DNA from: Deroplatys truncata
Lineage: Eukaryota > Arthropoda > Insecta > Mantodea > Mantidae
NCBI GenBank assembly: GCA_030765065.1
Contig: CM060979.1
Span: 104,334,350-104,398,349 of the forward strand
Length of the DNA: 64,000 bases
Direction of reading: 5' to 3'
The number at the start of each line of letters is the position of its first letter. Position 1 is the first letter of the stretch. The position numbers and the translations under genes are program-made. The notes under the pieces are model-generated. The model saw only the letters and a program-made list of their open reading frames with translations, did not search any database and was not told where the DNA came from. Below, one piece after another: positions 17,909 to 49,096 of the stretch.

Positions 17909-18872
17909 TGAGGCAGTATTTTTAACACTTAAATGATTTCAGTCTAATTATATAATATATAAATACAATAACAGCCCGCCTTAAAGCAATATGTGTATGT
18001 AACAATATATAAAAAGTGTATATTACAGTCATTGTATATGTTTATATTATTATATACATCTGTAATAATGTTATGTGAATGTATTACGTAATTTAATAAT
18101 GTAGGAGCTGTGAGAAATAGGTCAAAAGTTGCTAACAATGAGGTATACTTGAGGCAATAATGAGTAAGAAGGTTTAATAATGCTACTAGTCATTATTGGA
18201 AACAATAATGTAATTTTCGAGACAGTTTATAAAATAGCCAATCAACAACCAGAAAAAGCTTAAGTTAAATAAAAGTATTCCATTGGAGTAGGATTAGTCA
18301 ATCAGAGACTTGAAATACAGAAATTTAAAAATTTAAACGGTAGAAATCAAGTCAGTCGCTTGCAGACAGTGTTCCTGACCGGACGCGAGATGTGTCCTCG
18401 AGAAATTTAATACGTATTTTGTGTGAGAAAATAGTTTACGTGTTTAAAAAGTCAAGTATTTAATAAAAGAATCTTACAGCTCTCTATATCAGTGAAGTGT
18501 TATTTAAATCGTGTGAAGAATTAATAAAGAGTGAAAAAAAAAATTAAAATTTGTGTAAGCCTACATTCTTCAGCGGCACCACGCCTTGCAGAGAAATCCA
18601 TGTCTCTAACAATAATACTGACGCAGCCGAGGTAAACATAAATATATAATATTTAAAGAAACAGTCAAATTACAAAGTTAATATTTTTAAATTTTTGGAC
18701 GAAGGCTACCGGGTACCATACGTGCGGTTGCAACTACTTCAAATTCGGCTCCCCAACAGTCGAAATATAATACATCTTCAAACTGACTTTCCATACGTAG
18801 CAGCAACAAACCTTCTTCAAATTGGCTCCCAAAACGTGGGGCAAATAACAATACAACAAACCTACTACTTCA
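17909..18872 (+). mobile_element. Solo LTR, subfamily 2
   Basis: Starts TGAGGCAGTATTTTTAAC and ends CTACTACTTCA, flanked by TGTT at 17905-17908 and 18873-18876. About 964 bp. AATAAA occurs in its middle. A primer-site-like motif TGGCTCCCAAAACGTGGGGC lies inside it at 18823-18842, 30 bp before its end. No internal region is attached, so it is a recombination remnant. Confidence 0.9.
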
Positions 18873-18876
18873 TGTT

Positions 18877-20990
18877 CCACTGCAACCGAAAATTTGGGTT
18901 TAATAGAGACAAATGAAGACACCACACGGTCAAGTATATGATTGGTTGCTTTTTTCCATGTGTCCTTGGAAATGCATTCTCTTCTGCATTAAAATAGATA
19001 TTGTCTAAAGTGAGGGTAATATTCATGAAGGATTCCATTCATTCCTTTCCACTCAACTGCCAATTTTGGTTGAGTGAAATTCAAAGAAGAGTCTTAATAA
19101 TTCATCATTAGTTATTACCATCTTTTTTTCCTTTTCTTTCTTTCTTACTTTCTTTCCTTATTTGGTTGTACCTTTATTTTTCCTCTGGTTAAACAATACT
19201 TAGAAGAGAAAGTAAAACTGTTAAGTTGCCATAATTGTGGTGTGGCATACTTCAGTTTCCATCTGTAACTCATGTGCAGCCGTTTATGACATCGTGGCCG
19301 CACGCTTCCTCTCGCTCTCTTGCATGCCCCTCGCTACTCTGATAGTGTTGTACATACACATTATACTAACGACTTCGCACCTTCGCATTGGAATTACATA
19401 CTGCAAGCACATAATTAATTACAAAGACAAGCCACTTTACAGTTTGATCTGCTTGTCACATTGACCGAAGTTATTTAAAGGTTAGGAAACCTTGGGGATG
19501 AGCAGCGGGTCAGGGAAATGGAGTGCATGGAGAAAGAACCACCTGGGGGATACTGACAGGCCCCTTCCCCCTAAAAAACAATTGAATGCAAGGGATAAAT
19601 TTCATTGGAAATACAGTTGGTACTAAAATCATAGTGGCGTACGGAGCAATACATCAAAATAGTTACCAAACTCATTAGACAGGGGCTCGCATAATTTAAA
19701 CTTACTGTGTGGCCTCGCGTGGTTCAGACTTGTTATATAGCGAGTGATAAGGCCTACTGATGGAAATGTTAAGAGAATATTAGGAATTTCTGATGATGAA
19801 GAGGAGGAATCCTGGGTGCATAACCTGGTGAACTGTAAAGATACGGTAGAAGCAGAGTAAAGTTTTACTTGGTCATTTACTGTATCAAATAAGGTGATGG
19901 ACATGCTGGGCGCTACTGACAGGCAGGGAAAATGTGGAGGGAATAGGCAAATGTTTAAGGCCAGATATCTCAGATCTGAGAAGGTGGACGCTAGTGGGTA
20001 GAGGGGTGTGAACATACCTAAACGTATCTTGTTGGGTATTGGCACTTCATTTTTGTTATTTTATGCCATCATTCACATACTGTTATCGTGTTGTATTTAT
20101 TTGCTAGTTTTAGTGTTCTTTAGGCCACACAACAGAATACTAAAATGTGTCGTAATAAAGTTAGGTAGGACATTGTTTTGCGCTTTTTCTCTCGAGTTAG
20201 CTAACAGTAGTCAAGATGTACAAGCACATCAAGCATATGTGCGAAGTTTCTATGGTCTTTAGCCTAAAATAACAACATTTTATAAATTGTTAATTGGATC
20301 TGAAAACTTGTTTTCACTTTCATTAAATTTTGAAGCAAACATGCTTTCGAAATGTGAATTAAGAATTTCTGGCACCCGGGTTCACCCTGCCCAACGTTTG
20401 AAGATATGTTTATGATTCTTTGGTTTTATTTATTTCCCTTAGAGCGAATAACTCTCATTTACCGTTTCTACTCGTATGCATCACTCCTATCTTTCCCTAT
20501 TGTATTTAGTTTGATATTCGTGTTCATTCATCGCTTCTGCAGAGATGGTAACCGAAATCGTGACGATTCATGGTTATTCAAATGTACGTAGCTGAGCTAC
20601 ACTAAATTTGTCTTTTGAAGATAAAGGAAAACCCCAGAAAAACCCGTAACCGAAAATCGAAATATTTGGATTGCTAAGTAACACTCTCCCATTAAACCAG
20701 GAAGGTGGATGATGAACCTTTGCACTGTAAGCAAGGGTAAAATGGATTCAACCCCTTGCTAAACATGGTTTCAAGGAGTTTTGTGGCATATTAAGCAACT
20801 GAATAGAACAGATTTTTAATTGGGAGCTTAATACAAACTATGCACTCTAAAAAGATAATTACTAAATCCACCTATGAGACAATATGGAGGGAAAAATTCA
20901 AACCGTACCACTTGCAAGTTACAGTTCTGGAATTTGGATTTTTGTCCCATTTTATGGTATATAATAATAGCTCATTATGAGTGTACGCAT
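18877..20990. other. No identified feature; one unrecognised minus-strand frame
   Basis: A 138-codon minus-strand frame (19629-20045) has no motif I recognise, with a Ser run near its middle. The stretch 20620-20680 has short GGAAAACCCC-like text resembling parts of the SINE-like families. Nothing else is supported. Confidence 0.35.
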
Positions 20991-20991
20991 A

Positions 20992-21855
20992 TTTTTACTT
21001 TCTCTACTACTCCCCTACGTATAGTACGTAGGGGAAGTATTGTATTCCATCCAAAAATTCCATACCGAGATTTCACCGGAAATATATGTTTTGAGACCCC
21101 CTAAATCCAAAAAAAAGTATTTTTGGAAACCTGTCCGTGTGTGAGTCTGTGTGACTGTGAACAGCATAACTCAGAAACGAACAGTCGGATAAACACCAAA
21201 CTTGGTATTTAGGTTTAGTATCTTCCAGAGATGCAACACGAAGGTTTTCAAGAAAATCCCCCCACCCCGAATTACCCTTTACATCGAACATTTTTCGAAA
21301 ATTTTAATTTTCACAAAAATGGCTCTAACGATTTTGATTAAAATATCATATGTTTAAGATATTTTCATGACAAACGAAATGTATATCTGGAATTTTCTGG
21401 GAATGTCTCCAAAAGTATTCTTCATTGTGAACGACTTTTGCATAACTGGTAAACCATAAGAGATAGGCATAATTTTACTACACAAAAATGTAGATCACGT
21501 TAAAATATACAATTTATGTCATACACATTTTTTTGTTGAGTGAACCATTTTCGAGATATTGATTGTTATTGCCTTAAATTTTCCAATACTTATACTTTTT
21601 CTCAAATTCGTTATTCATCTTTTTTTGTCCTGGTAATGCAAAGAGAATGGAATACTCCACATAGCAACCAGCTCTTAAAATATTTGACTATAGCTTAAAG
21701 TCTACCATATTCCCCTTGCATCTGCAAGAAAATTAGCAGTAAGATTAACATCTCGATATCTCGATTGTCATGAAGCATATGGAGAATAAGCGTTTGTAAA
21801 AATAGTTTGCACAAGAGTAGAGGAAGTTATGGGAGTGTAACACTTCAGATTTTTG
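20992..21855 (-). repeat. HINE-like element, minus strand
   Basis: Begins TTTTTACTTTCTCTACTAC and ends GTAACACTTCAGATTTTT. One head and one body unit, with a very short CA tract. The stretch CCCCTACGTATAGTACGTAG near the left end makes a local palindrome. Confidence 0.88.
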
Positions 21856-21859
21856 AGCA

Positions 21860-23210
21860 ATGAGAACACAGAGTAAGCCTCCAGTATTCAAAAGGAAAGG
21901 GAGTTTGAAGACATACAGGCTAAGCAGATTGGATTGATAAATGCCTGTAAGACATCCGTTTTTATCTCGTAAGTTTCCTTTAACTAAAGGCGGATATCGG
22001 ATAAGTTCAACGTTTCGTGTCCTCAGGCTCATTTAAGAGCAGAGAAGGATGCTTCTCTTACTTCTACTGCAAAAACAGACTGCCAACCCTATACTGTTCA
22101 AAGGGAATCTTGCTTTAGGGCTCTGAAAAACCCAACGAGCAACGGAAGTGTTTGCTTTGTTTGCTTATCAGGGTTTATCGCGTGTTATGACACTAAACGG
22201 ATAGGTTTTGGAAGCCAAGCGTAAAATACTGAAAGCTAATAAAGGACAACAGTCAAAATGAAAACCATACGCATATATAACCATACGTACAATTTTAGGA
22301 CAATTTTAACAAATGTTAGCGATAAAACAATAAATTCAGAAGTATCATAAATACACGAAGATAAAGGGCGAACTCAACAAGAAAATGACTAACAGTAACA
22401 TTGCACCCCCTAAAAAGAACTTGTCATGTTATAACTTCGTATTCTACATTGTCTAGCTAATATTTGCGGGGACGGAATTTGCATCTTGAAAGAAGTGTGA
22501 AGGTTCATCAATATTGCTCCTCCCTAAAAAAAAAACCATCTTAATAATATTAAAATAAAAAAAGGGTTTGTGAATTATTCATTGTCAATGATATCATCGT
22601 CACTATTATAATTTTCTTGTTGTTTCTGATGTGTTTTGTGAGTTTGGTGGTTGAAGGTGTCAAGAAAAAACTCGTTTATGGTAAAGGGACAGCTCACCTG
22701 TATCCTTTAGTTTTACAGGAGCCAGGACGATTGGGCAGTCGACAATATTTTCAGATTTTCAAGAAATAATTCATGAAAATGTAGGAAAAAAATCATACAG
22801 TTTGCGTTCGTCATTTATTTTCGAACGCCTAGCCTAAACTGCTCAGAGAGAATTTGAAGTTAGTCACATAAATTATATATGCTCTCTCTCTCTCTCTCTC
22901 TCTCTCCCCTCTGTGTTAGACGTTTAAATACTATCATATACAATGTAATATACAATGTTTCTGATGATGATGGCTTACATTCATCATTTCACTCCCTGAC
23001 AGCCTTCCTTTTCTAGTTACACTCCTAATTTCTGCATCATTATTTTCAATGACATTTCGCCAAACGCTGATAAAAGCCGAAATACAAACCTACAATTAAA
23101 AACAACTATCTAGATCAAAGTTGCGCTGTACGTCATTGATTTCTTAGATTTTTCTTTCTCAGGATGTTTATAACGTTATACGGTTTGATATTCCAGACTT
23201 TTCCTAATAC
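21860..23210. other. No feature seen apart from (TC)n
   Basis: (TC)n at about 22882-22907. A 95-codon minus-strand frame at 21745-22032 overlaps the end of the HINE-like element and is not supported. Confidence 0.45.
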
Positions 23211-23214
23211 ACAT

Positions 23215-23470
23215 TAAGCATTACCAACAACAGGTTGCCTATCGCCAATGACGTTAACTCCCTTACAGTTGTAATTGGATTTCTGTTTGGTTTTTGGGGG
23301 GTTTATACATTAAATCACACACACATTCACACTTCCAGATCCTGGGGAGGATAGGAAATATTCTTGGTTACAGAAAAATTCTCACCTCCCAGCCGGAAAT
23401 CGAACTCGTGACCCGTCGCACAGCAGGCAGGTGCTCTACCGACTGAGCTACGAGGTCAATCGTTTCCAAC
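23215..23470 (-). repeat. SINE family 3, well preserved tRNA-like head
   Basis: On the minus strand, GACCTCGTAGCTCAGTCGG is an A-box region and CACGAGTTCGATTTCCGG a B-box region, spaced as in a tRNA. The body continues to ACACACATTCAC and CTTACAGTTG. A second copy is at 46065-46320. The T arm does not pair and the acceptor stem does not close, so it is a SINE head and not a tRNA gene. Confidence 0.75.
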
Positions 23471-23479
23471 AACACCACC

Positions 23480-23483
<4 letters not shown>

Positions 23484-23551
<68 letters not shown>
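23484..23551. repeat. (AAT)n microsatellite
   Basis: About 22 AAT units directly beside the SINE head. The poly-Leu frame here is an artefact of this tract. Confidence 0.95.
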
Positions 23552-23751
23552 TTAAGCAATATCTGTGATACATTGCTATTCGGTTGAAGCAGTATTATAA
23601 TGAACTGAATTGATGTGAACTGATTTATGGTGCCAACATTTGCACAATACATAAAAAATCTTATGATACATTTACATAGCTTTCTCTATCGGCTGTCGTT
23701 TAGTTTTTTCCACCAAGTATTCTTATAAAACTTATTCTTCTAGCATACATA

Positions 23752-24580
23752 CTCTTTTTCGGCCCAAAAATTCGATACCGAGATTTCACCGGAAATATAT
23801 GTTTTGAGACTCCCTGAATCCAAAAAAAGCATTTTTGGAAACATGTCCGTGTGTGTGTCTGTGTGTGTATGTCTGTGTGTCTGTGAACAGCATAACTCAG
23901 AAACGAACAGTCGGATAAACACCAAACTTGGTATTTAAGTTCAGTATCTACCAGAGATGCTACACGAAGGTTTTCAAGAAAATCCCCCGCCCCAGACTAC
24001 CCTTTACATGGAACATTTTTCGAAAATTTTAATTTTCTCAAAAATGGCTCTAACGATTTTGATTAAAATATCATATGTTTAAGATATTGTCATGAGAAAT
24101 GAAATGTATATATCGAAGTTTCTGGGAATGTCTCTAAAAGTATTCTTCATTGTGAACGACTTTTGCATAACTGGTAAACCATAAGAGATAGACAAAATCT
24201 TACTACACAAAAGATGTAGATCGCGTTAAAATACACAATTTATGTCATGTACATTTCTTTTGTTGAGTGAACCGTTTTCGAGATATTGCTTGTTATTCCC
24301 TTAAATTTTCCAATACTTATACTTTTTCTCAAATTCGTTATTCATTTGTTTATGTCCTGAACATGCAAAGAGAATGGTATGCGCCACATAGCAACCAGCG
24401 TTAAAATATTTGACTATCGCTTAAAACCTACCATATTCCCCTTGCATCTACATGAATATTACCAATAAGATTGACATCTCGATATCTCGATTAACATGAA
24501 GGATATGGAGAATAAGCGTTTGTAAAAATAGTTTGTACAAGAGTAGAGAAAGTCATGTGAGTGTAACACATCAGATTTTT
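23752..24580 (-). repeat. Young HINE-like element inside the older one
   Basis: Very similar to the 3578-4461 copy. It ends AGTCATGTGAGTGTAACACA-TCAGATTTTT at 24580. The opposite tip (TACTTTCTCTACTAC) is absent at its left edge, where the sequence starts near CGGCCCAAAAATTCG. Confidence 0.85.
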
Positions 24581-24904
24581 ATGCATTTGTTGTAGGTACA
24601 AGAGGAATACAGAGGGCGCTAATGACCTTGAAGTTGATCGTCCTTAAACATAAATCATCGTCATCAAGGGGGACACAGAAACGGAAGCGGATCGTTATAT
24701 GCTGGCTTTGAAATTCCGTACTGTTTACATGACATCGCGAGAAATAGGTGAATGGGTAGAGTGCTACGAAGCATGAAAATGTATTAAAAATTCGAAGCAG
24801 TAACAACAAATATCTCGTAAATGGCTAATTCCATAAAAGGTTTACTTGAATTAAACCATGTGTTTTAATGCGGTCTACATTGTTTATTAATACTTTTTTT
24901 AAAC

Positions 24905-25750
24905 ATTATGGCCTAAAAGTGGAACTTTTAACATAGTGCACACAAACACTAGTGCGATACCACCCCATTGTGACCAATCACATGACAATTATCCTTTATA
25001 TTTGCACATGTTTAATACTTCGACTTGGCTTGTTTAGGTTTTACTTTTTACTATGTCTTTTTACATGATTAGTTTCTCATGGCGGTCCCATTATCTGTTC
25101 ACAATAAAATCCTCATACTTTAATTTATTGCAATTCGTTGTGGAGTTGACCTATTGCTTACATTGGCAGCCTTGTGGTTTCTTTGATCTGAATGTTATTA
25201 TTTCATCTAGTATAATCTATATAAAGATTAAATGGCGGCAATTATGAATTCAGAAGAATTTATATATTCATTTTCAGAAGAAACTGAAATGGAAGAGCCA
25301 GGTGAAATTACAGAAGCAGCAGAAAGAATAACACTCTAAGTACCTACTTACCCAAAAAATCCAAAAAGCAGCATGATATAGCATTTAATCGCTTTGTTGC
25401 CTGGTGTAAGGCAAGACACGTTGAAAATAATTTCACTGAAAATGACTGCTAGGGAATCAACAAAACATAAAAACATCTGACATCTCACTATACACGAGAG
25501 TTGATCTCGTTTTTAACACCACTTCTCCTGTTTCAAGAATCTCGCTAAACACGTGAGTTGATTGCGTTCTAAATGTGATTCCTCTTAGTTAAAGGAATCA
25601 ATATAATATTACTTTATTGTTATTTTACAATTTCGAGCGCTGTTTAAAAAAACAATATATGCTACACTGTTAAAAAGAGGTTTTATTTTGCTCGGAAACA
25701 TTCCTACCCCCAAAATAAAACCCCACTTTTATGACTTGTATCATAATCCA
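24905..25750 (+). mobile_element. Decayed element with tyrosine-recombinase-like coding trace
   Basis: This insert interrupts the older HINE-like element. Near its ends, TAAAAGTGGAACTTTTA and the inverse of the right side (ATAAAAGTGGGGTTTTAT) look like inverted repeats. At 25230-25450 the plus strand reads MEEPGEITEAAERITL and, after a frame change, YLPKKSKKQHDIAFNRFVAW, then CKARHVENNFTEND. That resembles the N-terminal core-binding segment of the Crypton-like tyrosine recombinase family common in arthropods (PKKSKK...F..WC). The catalytic part is absent. The family call is tentative and the edges are uncertain by about 20 bases. Confidence 0.45.
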
Positions 25751-25933
25751 ATATTCTGTCTATTTCTTATGGTTTATCAGTTATACAACATTCGGAATAA
25801 GAATACTTCACAAACTATTCATATGTAAATATGTTTAAATGTTTGGTATTTAACGGGAATGGTTAGAGCCATATTTGGGAAAATAAAAAAAATAAGGAAA
25901 AATGTTCGGTATAAAGGGCAGTTTGGTGTAAAG

Positions 25934-26090
25934 CAAGGGTGGCAAAAATGCCTTTCTCTCTCGAGTCATCAAATATGCAACACGCACTGCACCACTCAGC
26001 AGCACATGGAAAACAAATGAATAGACGGCTCGAAAAGGAGTTGCGCCTGCGAGGAACAGTGTCTCGCGAGTCGCGCTTTCGCCACCACTG
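25934..26090. mobile_element. hAT-type MITE, 157 bp
   Basis: Starts CAAGGGTGGCAAAAATGC. The inverse of its right end is CAGTGGTGGCGAAAGCGC. It is flanked by the 8-bp duplications GTGTAAAG (25926-25933) and GTGTAGAG (26091-26098), seven of eight identical. An 8-bp duplication with CAGNGGTGG-type ends is diagnostic of hAT elements. There is no coding capacity. Confidence 0.88.
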
Positions 26091-26121
26091 GTGTAGAGGA
26101 TTTTCTTTAAAACACTCATGT

Positions 26122-26949
26122 TGAGGCAGTATTTTATATCACAACACTGTGAATGCCAGAGTGATTGTAGTGTAAATTAACATTATTGTATAATAATGAT
26201 TTGAGATGTTTATTAATTATAAGCATTGTTAGGAAATAAGTTTACACGGCTTACTAAAACTGACAATAGGAAAGGGTAACAATGTAGCGAGGGGGTGAGT
26301 TGTTTATCAATTAGAAGAGACAAACAAATGACGTCGGAGTAGCGTGCCTTTTTAGAAATGGAGGGAATATCTTCCCTAGAGCATATGTGTTTCTAATTTT
26401 GATTGGATAAAAAAATAGACGCTAATGTTAACGCGATTTATTAACCAATAGCAGCTCTGTTATAATGTTTAGGCATATCGGGGGAGGGAGTATAAATTCT
26501 AGAGCCAAAGACAGGTATCGCGCAGTTCAACAGAATCATTCACCGGTTACACGTCGCGCAGTTCAACAGAAGCATTCACGAAGTACACGTTACGCAATTC
26601 TACAGAATCTCTCGCGTCGTAAAGTTAGTTACAAAATTTGAAATACCCGAATTAATAATGCGCGGCAAATAAGTGATTATAGTTACATTCGAAAATATAA
26701 CAGTTTCAGTCAGGCGTGTATCAAGAGTAATTATGTGAAATTAATTAAGTGTGGCGGCAATAAAAGTGTAAAAACAAATTCTTTTATCAGTGTTACCTTT
26801 TAGTAACAACTGCTTTCCGTTTACACACCCTGTTCAAGAGATTTGCTCGACTGAGTAGTAATAGCTAGCCGGAGGACAAAGAACCCAAAATTCAAAATAG
26901 TAAAACAATAACAGGCGTTCAGCAAATAAGATAACACGATACCGCGACA
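26122..26949 (+). mobile_element. Solo LTR, subfamily 1b
   Basis: Starts TGAGGCAGTATTTTATATC and ends ACCGCGACA, flanked by ATGT at 26118-26121 and 26950-26953. About 828 bp. It has a TATAAATT box and an AATAAA signal. It is related to the LTRs of the 5621-9874 element but is a distinct subfamily. Confidence 0.92.
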
Positions 26950-27026
26950 ATGTCTCATCTTTGGAAGATGTCTGACTCAAATACTAAGTTTGGTATTCAT
27001 CCGCGACTTCGTTTTTGTGCTATGCT

Positions 27027-27098
<72 letters not shown>

Positions 27099-27289
27099 GC
27101 CTTTATCTAAAAGGATTTAGTGGACCTCATAATGTGTATTTCCACTGAAATCGAAATTTTAAGTGGAATACAATATTTCCTCTACCTGCTATAGGTAGGT
27201 GACGAATGCAGCACTACTGAAATTATGCCTCTCCCATAGCTAAACTCCCGAAGTCCTAAGTTCACATCACCATTATCTCAACTATGTAT

Positions 27290-27965
27290 GATCTTTAAAC
27301 TTCTCATCCTTTTCTCTCTTATTTTTTCTAAAAATATCCTCATTTTATTAATTTTGCGATGTTATTAACGCTTTGATTGCTATTATACCGTGTTATAAGT
27401 TATCCCATGTTTTTATTTCGGACACTATATCTTTATTGCTATTTCACGATCCTTTAAACAATGAAAGGTGTCATCGAATTTTCTACACCTAATGCATTTT
27501 TCCTTAAGCCTACGTTTTTCCTTAATCCTTTTCTAAATCCTTTTCTGTACATATTTGTTGAGGATCTTTTCTCACAAACTGATCACAGTTATCTATATAT
27601 TTCTCCTCTACAATTTTTAAACTATTTTACACACATCTAAAGAACTTTGGTACTCAAAGCTAGCCCAAAACTCCCGCTTCTCTGTATCTTCTACACTCTT
27701 TCTTAATTCTTTCCAAAATTCGCTAACGTATTTTCACCCAGTTGCCGAACATCTCTTATTCCAATGTTTTCTAACAGTTTCTCCTCCTCCATAAGCCAAT
27801 CCTCTCTTCCCACTACACCTCTTGGGTACCTCGGACATTCTTTTAGCATATTTCGAATATATCGTTTTAAATACTATTATGAACCTTCCTTTCCACTCTT
27901 TCTACTTCTGTCAAACTCACTCTACTTGGAAAACATTTTTATAAACCCAGAATGTCTTTACAAAG
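27290..27965 (-). pseudogene. LINE ORF2 fragment, region after the reverse transcriptase
   Basis: The minus strand reads YIRNMLKECPRYPRGVVGRE, DWLMEEEKLLENIGIRDVRQ and later RCRKFDDTFHCLKD across several frames. This resembles the linker and cysteine-containing tail of insect non-LTR retrotransposon ORF2 proteins. No reverse transcriptase motif is present in the fragment. Several stops and frame changes show it is dead. The clade cannot be named from this part. Confidence 0.55.
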
Positions 27966-28104
27966 GTTGAAGCAGTATGGCGTGGACTAGACTTAGCCAT
28001 CATATGTTGAAACAATTGCTGTTGTGGCGCTAAGCTGTAGTGATTTGCATATGAAATTCCTTGATGATTGTTAACTTGGGCCTGGATTCGGGAACAATCA
28101 TATG

Positions 28105-28376
28105 TCCTCCGTGGTCTAGGAGTACCATCTTAACTTCTGGAGGTCGCGGGTTCAAATCCGTGGAGGGCGATAGATTATTTCGGGCGTAAAAATTCTTAGC
28201 ATGGTTTCCTTCGGAAGGGAAGTAAAGTCGGTGGTCTCGGTCGTAGATTTGCGGCACGTAAAAGAATCTCAGGCCTGATAAAGAGGCCTCTGAGCAACGC
28301 TTCTGATCTTTTATGCTCAATATAGACTGGGATGCTAAGAACCATGGTAGTTAAAGAGCGTCCATAAATAAAACTC
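28105..28376 (+). repeat. SINE family 1, full length
   Basis: Head TCCTCCGTGGTCTAGGAG (A-box region) and GGTCGCGGGTTCAAATCC (B box), then the body with CCTTCGGAAGGGAAGTAAAG and an A-rich end after GAGCGTCCATAAATAAAA. About 270 bp. Confidence 0.88.
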
Positions 28377-28639: not shown

Positions 28640-29222
28640 TGAGGCAGTATTTTTAACACTTAAACGATTTCAGTCAAATTATATAATATAAAATATAATA
28701 ACAGCCCGCCTTTAAGCAATATGTGTATAATATAATATATAAAATGTATGTAATAGTCATTGTATTAATTTTTATATTATTATGTACATGTTCAATAATG
28801 TTATGTGAATGTATTAAGTAATTTAATAATGTAGGAGCTGTGAGAATAATAGGTTAAAATTTGCTAACAATGAGGTAACAATGAGGTAACCTTGAGGCAA
28901 TAATGAATTAGAATGTTTAATAATGCTACTGGTAATTCTTGGAGCAACAATAATGTAAATACTGAGACAGTTTTTAAAATAGCCAAACAAGAACCAGAAA
29001 AAGCTTAAGTTAAATAAAAGTATTCTATTGGAGTAGGATTAGCCAATCAGAGACTTGAAATACAAAATTTACAAATTTAGGCGGTAAATCAGTGCTGTTG
29101 CTAGTAGACAGCGTTACTAACCGGACGCGAGACGCGTCCTCGAGAAGTTTAATACGTATCCAGTGTGAAAAATAAATAGTTTACGTGTTAAAAAAATGCT
29201 AGTAATTAATAAATAATATCGC

Positions 29223-29276
<54 letters not shown>

Positions 29277-29616
29277 CAGTGAAGTGTTATTTTAATCGTT
29301 TAAACAGTAAATAAATGGAGTGAAGTACAAATTATAATCTGTTTAAGCCTACATTCTTAGCCGCACCACTCCCTGCAAAGAAATCCATATCTCTATCAAT
29401 AATACTGACGCAGCCAAGGCAAACATAAATATATAATAATTAAAGAAATAGTCAAATTACAAAGTTAACATTTTTAAACTTGAGGCGAAGGCTACCGGAA
29501 CCTTTTTACCATACGTGCGGTTGCACTACTTCAAGTGTTCGACTCCCCAACAGTCGAAATATAATACATCTTCTTCAAACTGGCTTTCTATATGTAGCAG
29601 CAACAAACCTTCCTCA
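28640..29616 (+). mobile_element. Solo LTR, subfamily 2
   Basis: Starts TGAGGCAGTATTTTTAAC and ends AACCTTCCTCA. The flanks AATT and ATTT are an imperfect duplication. It ends about 50 bp earlier than the 17909 copy and lacks the internal primer-site-like unit. (TC)n then (TA)n lie at 29226-29277. Confidence 0.85.
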
Positions 29617-34762: not shown

Positions 34763-35634
34763 TGAGGCAGTATTTTATATCACAACACTGTGAATGCCAG
34801 AGTGATTGTAGTGTAAATTAGCATTATTGTGTGACAATGAGTTGAGATGTTTGCTAATTATAAGCATTGTTAGGAAATAAGTTTACACGGCCTCACTGAA
34901 ACTGACAATAGGAGCGGGTAACAATGAAACGATGGGGTGAGTTGTTTATCAATTAGAAGAGACAAACAAATGACGTCAGAGTAGCGTGCCTTTCTTTAGA
35001 AATGGAGGCAATATCTTCCCTAGAGCATATATGTTCGTAATTTTGATTGGATATAAAAATAGACGCTAATGTTGGCGCGCTTTATTAACCAATAGCAGCT
35101 CGATTATAATCTTTAGGCATATCGGGGTGAGGGAGTAGAAATTCTAAAGCCAGAGACAAGTATTGCCCAGTTTAAGAGAATCATTCACGCGTTACACGTC
35201 GCACAGTTCAACAGAATCATTCACGGGTTACACGTCGCACAGTTCTACAGAATCATTCACGGGTTACACGTCACACAGTTCTACAGAATCTCTCGCGTCG
35301 TAAAGTTAGTTAAAAGATGTGAAATACGCGAATTAATAATGTGCGGCAAATAAGTGATTGTAGTTACATTCTAAAATATAACAGTTTCAGTCGGGCGTGT
35401 ATTAAGAGTAATTATGTTAAATTAATAAAGTGTGGCGGCAATGAAAGTGTAAAAACAAATTCCTTTATCAGTGTTATCTTTTAGTAACAACTCCTTTCCG
35501 TTTACACACCCTGTTCAAGAGATTTGCTCGACTGATTAATAATAGCTAGCCGGAGGACAAAGAACTCAACATTTAAAATAGTAACACAATAACAGGCGCT
35601 CAGCAAATAAGATAACACGAAAGTTACCGCGACA
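34763..35634 (+). mobile_element. Solo LTR, subfamily 1b
   Basis: Starts TGAGGCAGTATTTTATATC and ends TTACCGCGACA, flanked by AGTA at 34759-34762 and 35635-35638. About 872 bp. It carries three near-identical 43-bp repeats of the CACGGGTTACACGTCGCACA type around 35160-35290, where the 26122 copy has fewer. Confidence 0.93.
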
Positions 35635-39200: not shown

Positions 39201-39204
39201 GCTA

Positions 39205-39745
39205 AAGGTAAAGGTGCTTATCACGGAGGGGCTCCTGAAACAGGGGCAGAGCAACACATGTAGGCCAAAGTGGCTCTTAGAGCTTCAAACGCGACCCCTA
39301 AGGGAAGTATGAGGGACAAAATAGACCAGGGAGACGTGCGCAAATATGGATGGGGTCCCTAAAGATTCCAGATTGAACGAACCCGATGCCGTTGAAGCAC
39401 GTCCAGAAGCCCCGAGGTCCCCGGGAGTCCCTTAAAGGAAGCCGCTCAGAGAGAGTCCGACCCACCGCAGGAAGGAACCTTTACAGAGCGCACCACCACC
39501 GCCCAGCCGCAACACGCCGAATACCGTCATCTGGTCCTTCAACTCTGAAACAGATGGCGGTGAAAGAAATGATGGATACAGGAAATGATGGATAGGAAAC
39601 TGGTGCTGAAAGAGGAACCACCTCAGCATTCACCTACCGACAAGGGGAAACCACGAAAAACGCATGATCAGAGAGTGCGGTCACGATAAATCGAACCCGG
39701 AACCTCCTGTATGCAAGCCTCAAACTTTGCCATCTCGATCAGTAA
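39205..39745 (-). repeat. SINE-like element, B box at right end
   Basis: On the minus strand, GGAGGTTCCGGGTTCGATTT is a B-box-like head. The body is GC-rich and the end is AAGGTAAAGGT-type text on the plus strand. It resembles 30445-30950 in layout. Confidence 0.6.
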
Positions 39746-39749
39746 TATT

Positions 39750-40700
39750 CTTGGTAGAATTAGACGTTTTCGACTTATTCCATGTTATATTCTTAGGCTT
39801 TCACATGTTAAAGTGTGTCATCTGGTTGAAGATTTGTATTCTTCTGTTTTCATTTCCTTTGCCCTGAGTGTCTTGACTATATTATAATAAAGAGCAACTG
39901 AAGGTTGTTTCTGCACGTTGTATGTAACTAATACATATTGTTTAATCTGGACTCATTTCTAGGCAAGCATGTGTAGTGAATAGCGTAAGATTCACATTTT
40001 ATTTAAATTGCTTATATAACATATCTACGCTTTTGAATTTGTGATGGGTAGAGAAAGTCGTGTGAGGAGATCTCTTCAGATTTTTTGTCAAAATTGACGG
40101 TGCAGTATTTTCGTATCGTTCTGGCAGCTGTTCACGTTTTGATATCAGCTCACTCTTCGCCATCCTTTTATCTCCTACGTACCATATCGATCTCTCTAAC
40201 AGCTAATACTCTAGCTTTTTGTTATACTGTTCCTTTGTGCCTCTGCGGCAAACTGAAATCTCTCGACACTGGACCGCAGAATGACTTCTCCCCTTTAAGA
40301 AAGGAAAGTGAATTAAGAGCAGCATTCGTTCAAAGCTCTTGAATCTGTAGACGGGTAGGAGTCAGTTTCCTTAAAGTGAAACATTTTTCTCTGAGAATTG
40401 TATTGAAATATTAAATGCGTTCTTGTTTACATTGGTTTACGTTAAATAGACAGTGACTGGCAAACGCACATGAGCAGTCCGCAATTTACACCATGAAGGT
40501 GCGTGGGTTATTATTGTTATTTTAATCTCACCTGTTATCATACCTAACCACCTTTAAGCTGTTCTATCGTGAGTTGATGTGGAACAGGCTAGCTATTGTT
40601 TGCAATCGAGCATATATCTCTTGGGTGAAGGGGTGTCTGATCGGAGAGGATGTTATGATTAGTGATAACAGTGAAGACTTTTTTGATAAATTATTAGAAA
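39750..40700. other. Spacer with a small HINE-like tip
   Basis: 40045-40085 (GGTAGAGAAAGTCGTGTGAG then CAGATTTTTT) matches the hairpin-side end of the HINE-like family on the minus strand. The remainder shows nothing. Confidence 0.5.
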
Positions 40701-40704
40701 ACCC

Positions 40705-41697
40705 CGAAGAAAGTTATTTTGTTGTATTGTTATTTGTCCCACGCTTTGGGAGCCAATTTGAAGAATGTTTGTTGCTTCACGTATGGAAAGTCAGTTTGAA
40801 GATGTATTATATTTCGACTGTTGGGGAGTCGAACTTGAAGTAGTTGCAACCGCACGTATGGTACCCGGTAGCCTTCGTTTGGTAGGTTTAAAAATATTAA
40901 CTTTGTAATTTTGACTGTTTCTTTAAATATTATATATTTATGTTTGCCTTGGCTGCGTCAGTATTTATATTTTTTAGAGACATGAATGTCTTAACAGGGG
41001 TAGTGCGGCTAAGAATGTAGGCTTCCACAGATTCCAATTTTACTTCACTCCTTTTATTAATGCTTAACACTATTTAAATAACACTTCACTGATATATAGA
41101 GAGAGAGAGCTGAGAGATTATTTTATTAATTACTTGCATTTTTTAACACGTAAACTATTTTCGTCTCACACGAATACGTATTAAATTTCTCGAGGACACA
41201 TCTCGCGTCAGGAACAGACTACAACCAACACGTCCAGTTATGAGCGCTGTCTACAAGCAACTGACTTCTAGATTTGTAAATTTTGCTATAGTTCAGTTTC
41301 TGATTGGCTAATCCTAGTCCAAAAGAATACCTTCATTTAACTAAAGTTTTTTCTGGTTGTTGATTGGCTATTTTATTAACTCTCAAAAATTACATTATTG
41401 TTGCTCCAAGAATGACTAGTAACATTATTAAAACTTCTAATTCATTATTGCCTCAAGGCTACCTCATTGTTAGCAACTTTTAACCTATTATTCTCCCAGC
41501 TCCTACATTATTAAATTACGTAATACATCCACATAACATTATTGAACATGCATACAATAATATAAACATATAAATGGCTGTAATATACACTTTTTATATA
41601 TTGTTACATACACATATTGCTTCAAAGCGGGCTGTTATGATATTTTTTTATTATATAATTTGACTGAAATCATTTAAGCGTTAAAAACACTGTCTCA
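40705..41697 (-). mobile_element. Solo LTR, subfamily 2, minus strand
   Basis: Flanked by ACCC at 40701-40704 and 41698-41701. On the minus strand it starts TGAGACAGTGTTTTTAAC and ends near AATAACTTTCTTCG. A primer-site-like motif lies inside it at 40736-40755, about 30 bp before its end. About 993 bp. Confidence 0.88.
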
Positions 41698-41701
41698 ACC
41701 C

Positions 41702-42760
41702 AACACGCTATGATCATGTATATACACTATTCACAAGCTAAATATGACTATTCTGGCCTTCGTTGGAACTCTACGTACATTCTAAAAAATCACGTGATTT
41801 ACTTTGTCATTGCATACCATAACTGCTTTAACTACTTCGTTATTTCCGTACCAAATTAAACCGCTTGTTACACTCACAACGCTTTGTACTTGGCGTTACA
41901 TATTAACACGTCGCAGTTGAATATTATAACTATTTACGTGTGATAAAATTTACTCTTAGCGATATATGTCCGGCATTAAAGATAAAATGACTTCTGGTTT
42001 GTTCCCGTAATTTATGGTTTTGTGTTAAGCTTTTGCCTAACCGCTTACAACTTTTAGGATTGGCTTAACTTTCGCACTACGAGTAGCGTCGAATTTTTAG
42101 AACCAATTAACGTTGAGGTTACAGCCTCTTTTAGGTAAGAACCCACGCTAACATTCTAAACTACAACTTTCTCGATCGCCTCACCCCAATGTTACTCTTT
42201 TTAGTTCAAGGCCTCTTCTTTATTGTTAGCTACCCCATCTTTAAGCTAAGCTTTTGTCATGATTCCTCTTACATTAACTTTCCCTTTTGCGTTTCAGCTT
42301 TTGGTCTGCTACTATGCTATGTTACACAAATATTTTATACATCTTATCTTACTACGATATACATTGAACATTATCATATATTTATCATTGTGAAATTGAC
42401 AACTGAAATACTGCTGCAAAGGTTTCAAAATGCTTTGCTTATGGTGCTTGAAATGGTACGTTGGATCTTTATAAAACGGCTTTCGTCATATTGCAACATA
42501 TATCTACACATCCATAAACTATACGAATACATAAAGTAAAAATGTAATATAAACTTTTATTTGAAAGTGTGTGCTATTTTAACCATGCAAAGCTTTCTAT
42601 TTAGAAAGATAATGTTAATAGAATGGATGAAGACCAGCTCCTAAAACTTGCATGAACTTCAAACCAAACACATCACGACCAGTGAAGACTAGCACAATGG
42701 AAACAGAGTTTATTATCAATAGAATAAGACAATTGAAATGGACAGGACATTGTCCTAAAT
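41702..42760. other. No gene seen
   Basis: A 116-codon plus-strand frame (42189-42539) is hydrophobic but matches nothing I know. AT-rich otherwise. Confidence 0.35.
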
Positions 42761-42763
42761 TAA

Positions 42764-42783
42764 GAAGATAGATAGATAGATAC

Positions 42784-42837
<54 letters not shown>
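42764..42837. repeat. (GATA)n microsatellite
   Basis: About 18 GATA units with one ACATA interruption. Confidence 0.95.
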
Positions 42838-43029
42838 GATAATTAGATAGATATTTTATTTCACTTCGTTAGTTACATAAATTAATTCTCATATAAGTTC
42901 TATAATACATAATTTTATCTCTACACATTACCCTTTATATATCCTTTTCACTAAGTTGCTGCATTACTAAGGGCCCGCAAACATCCAACACCATGGTTGT
43001 TGAGTCATTGGGTCCTATTTAATTTATGA

Positions 43030-43560
43030 TTCAACAATCTACATTTTCTTTCTATTCCCTATTTCTAATTTTTTTTCAACCATTTATTTCTCACTACTCC
43101 TAAATATTTTCCTATTTCAAATAAACTTTCCTTGGATTTAACTCTTAACAACCTTTTACCTATAATTTCATTTGGTAATCTAGACCAATTATTTCTTTGT
43201 AATTTTTTCCTCATATTCATTGTTCCTTCACATTCTAACAATAAATGCCAGTAATTGTTAAATTTGCTATTACATAATGGGCATTTGCCTTCATTTTCTC
43301 CTTCTCCTATGCCTTTTAACCTCACCACCCCTGACCTAGCCCATGCAAAGCCCTCTCTTGCTATTTTATTACAAACGTCAACATAGTTTTATCTTTCTCA
43401 TGTCCTTTTAATCTCTGTATATACATGTAATGATCTCTTTGAATTAAAACTACCAATTATTTCCTTCTTTCCATATCTTCAATTCTCAATCTAACTCTTT
43501 TCCAACATCCCTTCTCACGTGATTGTCTATATTTCCAAATATCCCCACACTTAAGAAGAA
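43030..43560 (-). pseudogene. LINE ORF2 C-terminal fragment with zinc-knuckle motif
   Basis: The minus strand reads KIAREGFAWARSG and then GKCPLCNSKFNNYWHLLLEC, a Cys-Cys-His-Cys cluster. It continues NNWSRLPNEIIGKRLLRVKS and ends near NKWLKKN and a stop. This is the typical last segment of insect non-LTR retrotransposon ORF2. The 87-codon part at 43065-43328 is intact, while the part before it is broken. A (GATA)n tract lies 190 bp away on the 3' side. Confidence 0.7.
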
Positions 43561-43564
43561 GAAG

Positions 43565-45595
43565 ACAATGTAATATTAAACTCGTGTTTTGCAGGAGCGA
43601 CCCTCCATGTACCAGTTCTCAAACCAATACTATTGCATCATGCATACATTGATAATACGAGGTAGACAATACTGAATATCCGCACCCCTATACAGACGCT
43701 ATGCAGACGGACTTAAATCAATATGTAATTTGAAATTAGAGTCAAAGGTAATCTTTTAAAGTGGTTGTCCTACAGCCTTTGTCCCATCCTACATTTCTAA
43801 CGCCATGTCTATTACTCCATTCATCTTTCCGAATAGCCATATCGAACAAAGGCATTATAATTCCTTCTCTCAATTGTATTGTAGATCTTCCTCTTCTGCT
43901 GTTCCCCGGTTACCTGAATTATAATACAGGTAAAAATTGTGCCGTTTTCGCCTCCCCCGTGGTCGTGGCTCATGCAACCAGCACGTCACAATGCTTCAGA
44001 GAAAGCCAACGTCCAAAACTTTGAACATACTGTCAGGAGTGACGTAAGACATCACCTCATCACGTAATACATCAGGTACGATCTTCATTGACTGGGTTCC
44101 GACACGCCACTGATGTCAGCGACATCATCTTCTACGACGGTTCCTGATCTCCTGGGCAGGCAGAGAAGAGGAGTCGCTTTTGCACCAGGGACTGAGGCGG
44201 AACAACTAGCCATTGTGACAGCGAGGTTCGGCATAATTCACCAAGGCTTATTTCGGCCTTGTCTAAATTATTTTTAAAACCTTGTTTGGTAAGGTTTTCA
44301 AAATTCAATCTAACTCTTGGTGCTTTTCCAAATTCTTGTGCGCGAGAAGTATTGACATTGCATTTCACGTAACTTTATGGTATTCGTTACTTTGTCGTAC
44401 ATTCTTTAAATGCACATGACAACTTTAAGCGTAGAAAGCAAAGAAAATATCACATTGTATTTGAGCATATTAATTTGTTAAACAAGTGTTAAAGCAAGCT
44501 AATCTAATCATTGTAAACGGATATATCACGTTAAAATAAATTGTTATTCTATGCGTTGGTGAATATTAGCTACTTCCTAGCTCCTAAGCAATGGTCTCCT
44601 TTTCACGGAAACTTTTCTCTGAGTATGGTAAATGATAGTACTGCAAGTGCAACAGAAATACAGTACAACATAAAACGCACAGTGCAAAGTGGCAGCAGAG
44701 CGCAAGTAGTTACTGCCCAGTGGTGCAAAATTTATATTTATATGTTCAAGGGTATGTACGACAGTTTATTTTACTAATTCTAGGGAAAAAGTAGAATGGC
44801 GAATTTATTCTAACAACTCCAATTCCTTATAAGCATACAAATGCAGTGTGTGTAATGAATTTCATGACATGGATAATACACTAATTCGTATTCAAATGCG
44901 TGTTTTGACTCCACTAAGGTTAGTAAGAATTTCTGAGAACCAAACTTCAATTATTATTGTAATTTTGATACTACTGACATACCAATGCGCAACCAAGATA
45001 TTTATCTAAATTATTTTACTTGTAAAATGCAATTCAAAATTTAAGCGCTTTTGTTATGTTGTAATTTACATTACTTAAAATGTATAGAGTCGTACAGTTA
45101 TAGAATATAATTTGATTTACAGTGAGCATACCTTTAGCAAAGTTTAAAATTCTGTTATTAGGGTAATATTACTAAAATTATTTTAATATTATTATATAAT
45201 TATATATAATATAGTATACAAAATTATTATAAAATTAAAAAATATTAGGGTAAATACATTTACTTTGAAATGGCAGGATTTGCTCCAACAATTTCATTAA
45301 AATTGGATCATAAATACAATCCACTTTGAAATGCTGTGGTTTCATATTGACAGTTTCATTAACAGTGGATTCTAAATGGAGTTTCACCTGAAATGACGTG
45401 GTTTACACTGATAGCTCTTAATAGATTTCCATTTTAAATTACCTAATTTTTGCTTTGAAATATGGTGGGCTTGAATTAATCATTTTGGCAAATCTATGCA
45501 CATTACCTATATTTCGCCTCCAACTTAGGTACACGAAAGTTTATTTTAACAGTTATTTATAAACAATACACATGAATGTTAAAAACGTTATATAC
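43565..45595. other. No feature identified
   Basis: AT-rich, especially 45100-45300. Short frames only. No shared repeat noticed. Confidence 0.4.
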
Positions 45596-46064
45596 AAACG
45601 TATACCAGATGGCCCAACAGCGCCGTACTTTACGTGTGCAGACATTCCTTCGTACGTTAAAAGAGGCAGAATCCAACGGGGCAATTCCAAGTAAATGCAG
45701 GCCAGTGAGGAACTTGCACTGTAGCATGAGCGACCGTCGTTCTATTCCTCGTGCGTATCAGCTAAGACGATGAGCAGATCGCGCTCATTGAGAGGCAGTT
45801 CCCAGGCTTGCTCCAGAGGGTATAGTCCGTGATGACAGACAAGAACAGTGTAAACAGACCGAAAAAGGTCTTAGGCTGTTTCCCGCGTTAGTTACAGAGA
45901 TTGTTTTCGAAAGAATAAACTCGCTTTTTAGATTGACAAATAATTAAAACGTCTTTATTTGACACATTAGCTAATTTTTAAATCGTGTTACGCTGTTCTT
46001 ATCTAATATTACACATTATACATTTTTTGTTCCATTTATGTACGCCTTTAACATCTTAGGTCAT

Positions 46065-46320
46065 ATTGGTGGCTTGATACCTTGCGAACAGTTGCTCATT
46101 AGCAATGCTATTAACTCGTTTTACAGTTGGGTAATTACACTAAATTCACACACACATTCACATTCTCATTCATACTTCTAGACTCTAGAGAGAATACGGA
46201 ATAATCCTGGCTAAAGAAAGATTTCCACCCTCCAGCCTGGAATCGAGCCGTGACCTTTGAATTTGAAGTCTAAGCATGCTATCCACCAAACCAAACTACA
46301 TTGTAGAGTTAAATCAAAAC
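46065..46320 (-). repeat. SINE family 3, second copy
   Basis: Shares TTACAGTTG, ACACACACATTCAC and the CCAGCCTGGAATCGA B-box area with 23215-23470. The tRNA-like head is more decayed. Confidence 0.7.
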
Positions 46321-46418
46321 ATTTAAACGCCATTACGAAAACCATGCAAACATGAGAGCACGTAGTTTTTAATTGCCATTTTATTAGATTATTAATAGCT
46401 GTTATTATTGCCATTATA

Positions 46419-46419
<1 letters not shown>

Positions 46420-46467
<48 letters not shown>
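46420..46467. repeat. (ATT)n microsatellite
   Basis: About 15 ATT units. Confidence 0.95.
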
Positions 46468-46468
<1 letters not shown>

Positions 46469-46639
46469 AGTAAATGAAAACGTTAAAGTCCTCATCGCGC
46501 GTACGTAAATAAACAGAATAGAAAGAGTTGCTTAAGCACTTCACAGGTTTAGTAATGCAAAGAACGTTATCGGTGTTTTGCTTAACTCTACATTTTTGTT
46601 TTATTCAACGCGATTTCAGGATCATTATTAGAGCTACGG

Positions 46640-46890
46640 ATCTACTGTTTATTTCAGGGTACATTTGAATCAAGAGTACCCTGGTTGCTGGATCGGCCGA
46701 GGCTGCCGCTTATCTTGGCCACCAAGATCTAACCTCACTAGAATTTTTCTTTTGGGGCACATAATACATATGGAGTTTCAAACAGAGCCCCTTAATGTAG
46801 AGGTCTTACGGCAAAGGATCATTGAAGTACGTGCATCTGTCATTTCAGCAGTTCTCAGAAATGTCCATAAGGATATACAGAAATAACTGA
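46640..46890 (+). pseudogene. DDE transposase C-terminal fragment (DUF4817 type)
   Basis: The plus strand reads NQEYPGCWIGRGCRLSWPPR, SNLTRIFLLGHIIHME and LRQRIIEVRASVISAVLRNV. This is the end of the DUF4817-associated transposase (RWIGRGG..WPPRSPDLTPLDFFLWG). The third catalytic Asp in SPDL is replaced (SNL), and the N-terminal two thirds are absent. It belongs to the same family as 33850-34738 but to another subfamily. It sits in the spacer of the large inverted repeat. Confidence 0.8.
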
Positions 46891-46978
46891 AACATTATAT
46901 CAATCAACAACAGAAAATGTCGAACTCCTATTTTATGAGTAAAGTCAGCGTAGTAATACCATTATGTAATTATAATCA

Positions 46979-46994
46979 TGATAATAATAATTTT

Positions 46995-47025
<31 letters not shown>

Positions 47026-47048
47026 TGATGATGATGATGATGATGATA
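46979..47048. repeat. (AAT)n then (GAT)n
   Basis: Compound trinucleotide tract at the inner edge of the right arm. It faces the (ATT)n of the left arm in inverted order. Confidence 0.9.
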
Positions 47049-47564
47049 GTAAGTGCAAAATTGCTTGAAACGCTACGCGCTCTCATGTTTGCATGGTTTT
47101 CCTTTCGACACTTTAATGCTTTGGATTTACTTTAGAATTCGTATGGTGCGTAGTATTAGACAAGAACAGCGTAAACACAATTAAAAATAGCTACGTGCGC
47201 ATACTGATAACTGACATTTTAATTATTTGTCAATCTAAAAAGTGAATTGATTCGCTAAAAAATAACGTCTCTGTAACTGAAGTGGAAAACATTTTGGGAC
47301 CGTTTCGGTCTGTTTATACACTGTTCTTGTCTATCCTAATGGACTGCGCACTCTAGTGCAAACCTTGGAACTGCCTCTCAATGAGCGTGATCTGTCATCG
47401 TCTTCGCTGATAAGCAAGAGGAGCAGACGAAGGTCAATCACGCTGCTGCGCCAGTTCCCCACTGAACTGCGTTTACTTGGAATTGCCCCGTTCAGTTTTG
47501 CAACTCTTTTAACCCACGAAGGGATATCTGCACATGTGAAATACGGACCTGGTATAATACACCT

Positions 47565-48063
47565 AAACCAGTGGTAAATATTTAACCAAATTGTGAATTT
47601 TACAATGAAAAAACAAAACAACAACAAATGTGTGTAAATGCAAGTATAGCGACTCACATCAGGGACGTAAATTTTGTACCTTTCATTCTGGTGTTTAGTG
47701 GTGATTTTGCGAAAATATCCATATCTCTATGTAAATTACCCTTAATGTTGAAAAATTTACTGTGAAAAAATTATCTTCAAATTCTGGAATAAAAAAATTT
47801 ATATTCTGTACAAGCAGAAATTCGCTAAAAAAACTAATACATGTTGAAGGCTACATCTAAACCACTTTTAATCCTACTCGAAATGTGTAAATTTTATAAG
47901 ATACTAATAGACCCGATTTCAGAAATATATTATGTGAAATCTAATGAACATGTATTTAAGATGCGTGTTTCAAACACTAAACTCTCAATGTTCAGTTTCC
48001 ACGTCTTGTTTCCATTTTCCGACTCAAGGAGTTAGAGGTCAATAGTTAAGGAACAGTGCGTTG
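47565..48063. other. No feature seen
   Basis: AT-rich. Confidence 0.4.
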
Positions 48064-48067
48064 ACTA

Positions 48068-49096
48068 CGAGGCAGTATTTTTAACACTTAGATAATTTTA
48101 GTCAAATTATATAAAAAAAATATAATAACAGCCCGTCTTAAAGCAATATGTATATGCAACAATACATACAAAGTGTATATTAGAGTCATTATATATGTTT
48201 ATATTATTGTATACATGTTCAATAATGCTATGTGAATGTATTACGTAATTTAATAATGCAGGAACGTGAGAATAATAGGTTAAAAGTTGCTAACAATGAG
48301 GTAACCTTGAGGCAATAAAGAGTAAGAAAGTGTAATAATGCTACTAGTCATTATTAGAGCAACAATAATGTAAATTTTGTGACAATTTAAAACATAGGCA
48401 ATCAACAACCAGAAAAAGCTTTAGTTAACTGAAGGTATTCTATTGGACTAGGATTAGCCAATAAGAGACTTGAAATACAGAAATTTACAAATTTAGGCGC
48501 TAGAAATCAAGTCAGTTGCTTGTAGACAGCGCTCATAACTGGACGCGTTGGTCGTAGACAGTGTTTCTAACCGGACGCGAGATGTGTCCTCGAAAAATTT
48601 AATACGTATTTTGTGTGAGAAAATAGTTTACGTGTTTAAAAAGTGCAAGTATTTAATAAAAGAATCTTACAGCTCTCTATATCAGTGAAGTGTTATTTAA
48701 ATCGTGTCAAGCATTAATAAAAGGAGTGAAGTAAAATTATAATCTGTGTAAGCCTACATTCTTCAGTCGCACACAACCCTGCAAAGATAAACATGTCTCT
48801 ATATAACAATAATACTGACGCAGCCGAAGCAAACATAAATATATAATATTTAAAGAAACAGTCAAATTACAAAGTTAATATTTTTTTTAAATATTTGGGG
48901 CGAAGGCTACCGGAAACTTTTTACCATACGTGCGGTTGCAAGTACTTCAATTTCGGCTCCCCAACAGTCGAAATACAATACAACTCTTTCAATACATCTT
49001 CTTCAAACTGAGTTTCCATACGTGAAGCAACAACCTACTTCAAATTGACTCCCAAAGCGTGGGGCAAATAACAATAAAATAAGATAACTTTTCTCA
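48068..49096 (+). mobile_element. Solo LTR, subfamily 2
   Basis: Flanked by ACTA at 48064-48067 and 49097-49100. It ends AACTTTTCTCA. It is the longest copy of the subfamily (1,029 bp) and also has a primer-site-like motif inside, near 49046-49065. Confidence 0.9.

Follow-up and report, generated by a model that had tools for sequence, protein, structure and literature searches.

The borders of long terminal repeats (LTRs) are usually assumed to be fixed within a retrotransposon family. Woot of Tribolium and woot-like Osvaldo relatives are gypsy-class elements with unusually long, repeat-bearing LTRs, and Voronin and Pathak reportedly described in 2004, to go by their title, frequent dual initiation from two primer sites in one retroviral vector. 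Mosquito (Culex) Ty3/gypsy elements of the Osvaldo lineage have LTRs of 997–2055 bp and a primer-binding site (PBS) that is always complementary to lysine transfer RNA (tRNA-Lys); at the 5′ LTR/PBS of one of them, cqgypsy_1, lies a head-to-head tRNA dimer (PMC3286476). The sequences of Copia-like cluster 149 of Anopheles gambiae are said to “present two PBSs”, three of them having a valine site and one a methionine site (PMC3212995). In the LTR1 lentiviral vector, which uses an additional PBS, primer-site position determines which sequence reaches the DNA copy and which is left out (PMC5542766). Here we describe a group of LTR retrotransposons in the mantis Deroplatys truncata, starting from a stretch of 64,000 nucleotides (the window; assembly GCA_030765065.1, contig CM060979.1, positions 104,334,350–104,398,349, forward strand).

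This is a tRNA-Lys-primed LTR retrotransposon group in which the end of the unique 5′ (U5) region is an array of modules, each consisting of a PBS and an AT-rich spacer. The array is modular, LTR ends that are fixed by target-site duplications (TSDs) lie at PBS-like junctions, and perfect PBSs are trapped within LTRs. Primer-site capture into the LTR is well supported because TSD-fixed ends coincide with places that precede a primer-site motif in other copies. The best reading, which we consider probable, is that the U5–PBS boundary slides between tandem PBS modules and that PBS repeats double as recombination hinges.

Subfamily-2 LTRs in the window

Five LTR copies in the window (A–E) belong to one subfamily, here called subfamily 2. 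Their positions and the motifs within them are as follows.

17909..18872, + strand: solo LTR copy A, exact TSD TGTT at 17905–17908 and 18873–18876
18746..18764, + strand: probable oldest PBS-like unit of copy A (CTTCAAATTCGGCTCCCCAACAGTCG...), suggested by alignment and edit counts
18784..18803, + strand: probable older, decayed PBS-like unit of copy A (CTTCAAACTGACTTTCCATACGTAG...), suggested by alignment and, by eye, repeat context
18823..18842, + strand: PBS-like motif trapped in copy A, 3 edits from the presumed tRNA-Lys-CUU primer site
28640..29615, + strand: solo LTR copy B, TSD AATT
40705..41697, − strand: solo LTR copy C, TSD GGGT as read along the LTR (ACCC on the + strand)
40736..40755, − strand: PBS-like motif trapped in copy C, located by motif search
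48068..49096, + strand: solo LTR copy D, TSD ACTA, first base mutated (TG to CG)
49046..49065, + strand: PBS-like motif trapped in copy D, located by motif search
63687..64000, − strand: LTR copy E, running past the window end; 3′ end ..CTTCTTCA, one-mismatch TSD (GTTT/GCTT)

Copies A–D are homologous, with pairwise identities of 77–85% over about 1 kb, and all four have exact 4-bp TSDs. The motif TGGCTCCCAAARCGTGGGRC occurs with at most two mismatches at four window sites (6710, 18823, 40736 on the minus strand, and 49046), compared to a shuffled expectation of 0.00. A preliminary description of the window had proposed that A, C and D each carry a primer-site-like motif 30–50 bp before their true ends. 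These motifs are real, and the LTR that remains behind them measures 30 bp in A and 31 bp in both C and D, at the low edge of that range. Copy B, which had been described as ending before the motif, stops exactly at the junction: its end aligns with the point at which the motif starts in A, C and D, and its TSD holds if the LTR stops one base before the usual ..CA. No motif within six edits was found before the LTR end of copy E.

LTR ends across the genome

Searching the 4.29-Gb assembly with copy A as the query gave 9,471 candidate places, of which the best 40 were scored, one of them being the window copy. The resulting set of 53 copies comprises 39 fetched places, the remainder of copy E, extra copies in the flanks and four window copies, and is skewed toward close relatives of A. 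The group is very abundant, and the sampled copies are largely solo LTRs. Without hand-chosen ends, 31 of 51 anchored copies have an exact 5′-flank 4-mer directly behind an end-like YWNCA in the tail, compared to a mean of 5.2 and a maximum of 12 with permuted flanks (2,000 permutations). Ends could be placed by hand in 46 of the 53 copies, with exact TSDs in 35, one mismatch in 10 and a worse match in one; permuting flanks over these 46 ends gave a mean of 1.1 and a maximum of 6. The seven copies omitted from this count are L014, L023, L030, two in L032, L034 minus and L035 plus. An exact TSD is visible by eye in L030, which lacks the anchor used by the script and was hence not counted.

Tail units have the layout AA(A/T)TGGC..CCCA..CGTGGGGC followed by an AT-rich spacer that ends mostly in ..TTCA or ..CGCA. 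Compared with what we take to be the tRNA-Lys(CUU) sequence, 20 of 46 tails contain a primer-site match with up to four edits, and shuffled and reverse-complement controls contain none; at up to six edits there are 33 motifs against 5 (shuffled) and 10 (reverse complement). Motifs with up to five edits number 26 in the tails, 24 of which have CA plus 2–3 nucleotides directly before them, and zero in 35.8 kb of LTR body. In subfamily 2 the inner motif, at 18746 in copy A, is more decayed (mean 7.85 edits, 40 copies) than the outer one (4.43 edits, 30 copies), and random body segments average 11.5 edits.

When the last 12 bases of a copy were sought inside other copies, junction-like sequence came next in 470 of 558 cases; random cuts gave 19–27%. 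In a stricter motif test, another copy contains an internal homologue for 32 of the 35 exact-TSD ends, and for 28 of those 32 such a homologue lies directly before a motif, compared to 4–10 of 33–35 in five controls. Short copies thus end at the LTR/PBS-like junctions of longer copies and not at random. This result bears on the explanation that the ancestral LTR was long and that short copies were randomly truncated at the 3′ end, the case that the preliminary description had named as fatal to its proposal. Several early-branching copies are long-tailed and carry the motif in a midpoint-rooted drawing, the root of which serves for drawing only, as truncation would have it, whereas the TSDs of the short copies are intact and their ends, mostly ..TTCA, correspond to points that a motif follows in other copies. 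Random truncation was rejected given the contrast between true ends and random cuts in the same tails, and we regard it as very improbable.

By eye, L016, L021 and other copies also have a tandem repeat of about 28 bp (ACATTTGGGGCAAAGGCCACCGGAAAGT) on the 5′ side of the PBS units, the copy number of which varies. This repeat may be a still older series of units.

A related full element and its family

A related full element lies near the start of the window.

5621..6581, + strand: 5′ LTR in a short reading; 5621–6706 when two units are counted, as in solo copies C14b, C15 and C10
6585..6604, + strand: first PBS-like motif of a triplet
6649..6667, + strand: second PBS-like motif of the triplet
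6710..6729, + strand: third PBS-like motif, adjoining the leader (TGGCACCCAGAACGTGGGGC)
8914..9874, + strand: 3′ LTR with no unit inside, TSD AAAT at 5617–5620 and 9875–9878

The LTR pair, TG..CA ends and short TSD (AAAT) of 5621–9874 are those of an LTR retrotransposon. Only a short GTGGGG run was found before the 3′ LTR when a polypurine tract was sought by eye. Of the open reading frames of the 4.25-kb element, only the longest (342 aa, 7077–8105) was searched; it matched no reverse transcriptase or integrase and gave only weak hits below Pfam cut-offs. The 5′ and 3′ LTRs differ at 9 positions in the first 911 columns, which agree at 99%, and at 19 in the last 50, and these differing tails sit within one target duplication. 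LTR length is 961 bp without units and about 1,085 bp with two triplet units. Homology with solo copies allows motifs 1 and 2 to be assigned to the LTR and not to the leader. The triplet (6585, 6649 and 6710), which had been offered as the starting structure for capture, is real, with this reservation on two of its three motifs.

The element through its triplet was used as a query for the related family, so the sample was selected for having units. Fourteen insertions were read at both ends, with 3′ ends chosen by hand; the TSD is exact in 13 and has one mismatch in C12. Counting the units inside the LTR, the 3′ LTR of the window element has none, the C14 array has one, nine copies have two, and C2b, C7 and C12 have three. 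The two units of C14b, C15 and C10 are similar to the pair that separates U5 from the third motif in the window element. The flanks of C1 read by eye as a subfamily-2 LTR that was broken at a duplicated GACT.

Perfect and imperfect primer sites

The perfect 18-base site in LTR-end context (TTCAAAT followed by TGGCGCCCAACGTGGGGC) has 1,180 exact genome sites, and the reversed pattern has none. Twelve stretches around perfect sites were read, four of them picked for two close sites, together with four around two pairs about 2.7 kb apart. Three TSD-bounded LTRs hold perfect sites. L084 (TSD GTAT) has five sites, two of them perfect, and L094 (ATGT) has one perfect site inside with a further spacer behind it. 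In L092 (TGTT) the body is nearly all deleted, and both ends and the perfect site inside are retained. A perfect primer complement inside an LTR would be the trace expected from priming in an earlier cycle followed by capture.

A perfect PBS lies before the leader at 209 genome sites. The recurrent imperfect site TGGCACCCAGAACGTGGGGC, which has a 2-base insertion, is commoner in this position: TGGCACCCAGAACGTGGGGC followed by AGAGTGACCAGG, one base unlike the AGAGTAACCAGG of the window, has 566 exact genome sites. The many imperfect motif copies with a recurrent insertion of 1–2 bases would not fit a canonical tRNA, and it could be reasoned from this that the repeated motif is a regulatory or structural repeat that merely resembles a primer site. 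The perfect tRNA-Lys(CUU) complements in LTR-end context and before the leader, and the presence of the 3′ part of the presumed tRNA at 124 exact genome sites, argue against that explanation, which we hold to be very improbable.

Arrays and module shuffling

Two loci have arrays of LTR + leader repeats. At C7, the LTR end ..TTACTTTA is followed by AAT and TGGCGCCCAACGTGGGGC, which places a tRNA-complementary PBS beside the LTR. Three-unit LTR copies in this array continue directly into the perfect TGGCGCCCAACGTGGGGC (read in the middle copy and listed for the first too), the last LTR ends at the same point, and AGGT flanks the array on both sides. The last LTR of the C14 array has a single unit and the TSD AACT; the upstream copies have a perfect site behind the first unit, and another, imperfect site adjoins the leader. 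The idea that the primed site can be recognised as a perfect one agrees with the C7 array, and with C14 in part, but not with the window element, C2a, C2b or C6. The C14 array is suggestive and not clean because the spacer of the first unit is not identical between upstream and last copies.

Head-to-tail repeats of LTR + leader recur with a period of about 2.7–3.9 kb. They are found at G000 C14:6994810 and 6998021; C7:225869304, 225873197 and 225877090; C1:227274493, 227277792 and 227281091; and L096/L097 and L098/L099. Among 100 listed leader-adjacent perfect-PBS sites there are five same-strand pairs less than 4 kb apart, and spacings of 3019, 3299 and 3299 occur between leader-adjacent imperfect sites on C1 (49 sites). 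Others are present among the places matched by the triplet query and among the perfect sites in LTR-end context. The tails of L096 and L097, and those of L098 and L099, look alike by eye over the shared stretch.

Units measure 48–127 bp with a median of 62 bp (44 units). The 43 inner spacers of the related family, pre-selected loci included, fall into 13 types by complete linkage at 75% identity. Single-linkage clustering at 85% was dropped, as it lumped 38 of 56 AT-rich spacers. One spacer type can turn up at several positions and after more than one PBS variant, and recombination at PBS repeats is therefore taken to rebuild the array.

These arrays also bring in the main rival explanation, which is that a fixed leader-adjacent PBS is always primed and that U5 next to it is a minisatellite that varies by reverse transcriptase slippage, template switching and unequal exchange between PBS repeats. 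We consider it unlikely, if well short of negligible. It agrees with the shuffling of units that recur at several positions, with a varying unit number that leaves ..CA as the last bases in most copies, with 5′ and 3′ tails that can differ in one element, and with the preservation of the leader-adjacent motif in 566 copies. It accounts less well for perfect primer sites inside TSD-bounded LTRs and for a repeat unit that is the PBS itself, which suggests an origin from priming. At C14, moreover, the upstream site behind the first unit is a perfect tRNA-Lys complement, and the TSD-fixed last LTR has one unit fewer than the upstream copies have before their leader-adjacent PBS, a single case with non-identical spacers.

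Proposed mechanism and its weighing

A sliding boundary could be explained by the following steps in reverse transcription. Several PBSs lie in tandem between U5 and the leader, and the PBS primed by the tRNA would set the U5 end of the new copy. Downstream priming would capture the upstream PBS + spacer units into both LTRs, whereas priming at an upstream, already trapped PBS would yield a shorter LTR and a leader with multiple PBSs. The primed site would be overwritten by the tRNA copy, and perfect 18-mers would occur for that reason. Because PBS copies are near-identical, annealing out of register would be possible, and strand transfer or template switching could then add, drop and reorder units and keep supplying downstream PBSs. 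In its full form this amounts to a primer-site ratchet: the LTR has no fixed 3′ end, primer choice sets the U5 stop and leaves a tRNA-copy signature, and out-of-register transfer makes new downstream sites. This full form is tentative, with in our view not quite an even chance of being right.

Several observations weigh against a sliding U5–PBS boundary. On a tree built from 46 LTR bodies, the distribution of tails with a motif requires at least 13 changes, compared to a mean of 14.05 for shuffled labels, which gave 13 changes or fewer in 100 of 300 cases; with no tree signal in the tail state, ordered gain cannot be shown. The tree itself is weak, with 13 of its 43 inner branches starred and a bootstrap that had not settled, and it lacks an outgroup, so that it does not tell gain from loss. 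The decay gradient of the related family is weak when pre-selected loci are left out, the first unit being the more diverged in 12 of 18 elements and the last in 4, with the two equal in 2. Both ends were read for only three LTRs that hold a perfect site, copies were selected by similarity, and the query for the related family contained units. No perfect site was found in the arrays of the window element, C2a, C2b and C6 as read. The imperfect leader-adjacent site is kept letter for letter in far more copies than the perfect one; since a primed site should be renewed by tRNA copying, the imperfect site would be seldom primed, or repair would favour the RNA-derived strand. In C14 the first-unit spacer differs mid-length between upstream copies and the last LTR, so that the ends match by position only. 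Finally, the window element and C2b have unlike U5 tails in their 5′ and 3′ LTRs (in C2b within one TSD), as do C2a and C6 as far as read, the 3′ ends of both not having been reached. Plain reverse transcription does not yield such differing tails; strong-stop DNA from a second packaged RNA is a possible, unproven source, and gene conversion is an alternative.

The preliminary description had proposed that the LTR grew outward by capturing primer sites, and that a tree would show stepwise gain. Capture stands, as LTR ends differ by whole PBS + spacer units and primer sites are trapped, but one-way growth is unsupported: the tree has no ladder of gains, and units are reordered and recurring.

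Other repeats in the window

Three LTRs of a further related subfamily contain no unit.

26122..26949, + strand: solo LTR, ends ..GCGACA, exact TSD ATGT
34763..35634, + strand: LTR, ends ..GCGACA, exact TSD AGTA
51372..52181, − strand: LTR, ends ..GCGACA, exact TSD ACTA

In L095, which looks related by eye to this subfamily, ..GTGACA stands at the corresponding point and is followed by AAT and a motif. Another repeat family of about 0.8–1.3 kb has many copies on both strands of the window (670–4465, 13619–14611, 20990–24580 and 58512–62000).

Implications

If the proposed sliding is true, one genome holds a natural record of primer-site use in which perfect tRNA copies mark recent use, and alternative priming and strand-transfer errors could therefore be counted in nature and not only in engineered vectors. 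If the ratchet is true, LTR length and sequence are a running record of past priming in thousands of copies. Repeat annotation has to reckon with several true end positions among the solo LTRs of one family. Dating by comparison of 5′ and 3′ LTRs can go wrong over the final tens to hundreds of bases, and the tails of the window element would mislead in this way.

Comparison with known systems

Dual initiation in two-PBS retroviral vectors is the type of event that is needed here, although those vectors are engineered. The LTR1 vector is likewise a designed construct, with a solitary LTR and no evolving array (PMC5542766). Cluster 149 of A. gambiae seemingly has two PBS types and not two tandem sites (PMC3212995). 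No description of primer sites captured in LTRs was found in the literature searched, which mostly excludes subscription papers, and the nearest case is cqgypsy_1 (PMC3286476). The mantis group resembles the Osvaldo lineage, of which it is at most a candidate member, in its tRNA-Lys(CUU) PBS; its LTRs of about 960–1,100 bp straddle the lower limit of the Culex range, and the PBS region of cqgypsy_1 is also unusual (PMC3286476). The unusual feature of cqgypsy_1 is a tRNA dimer, whereas in D. truncata it is a series of tandem primer sites captured in solo LTRs (PMC3286476).

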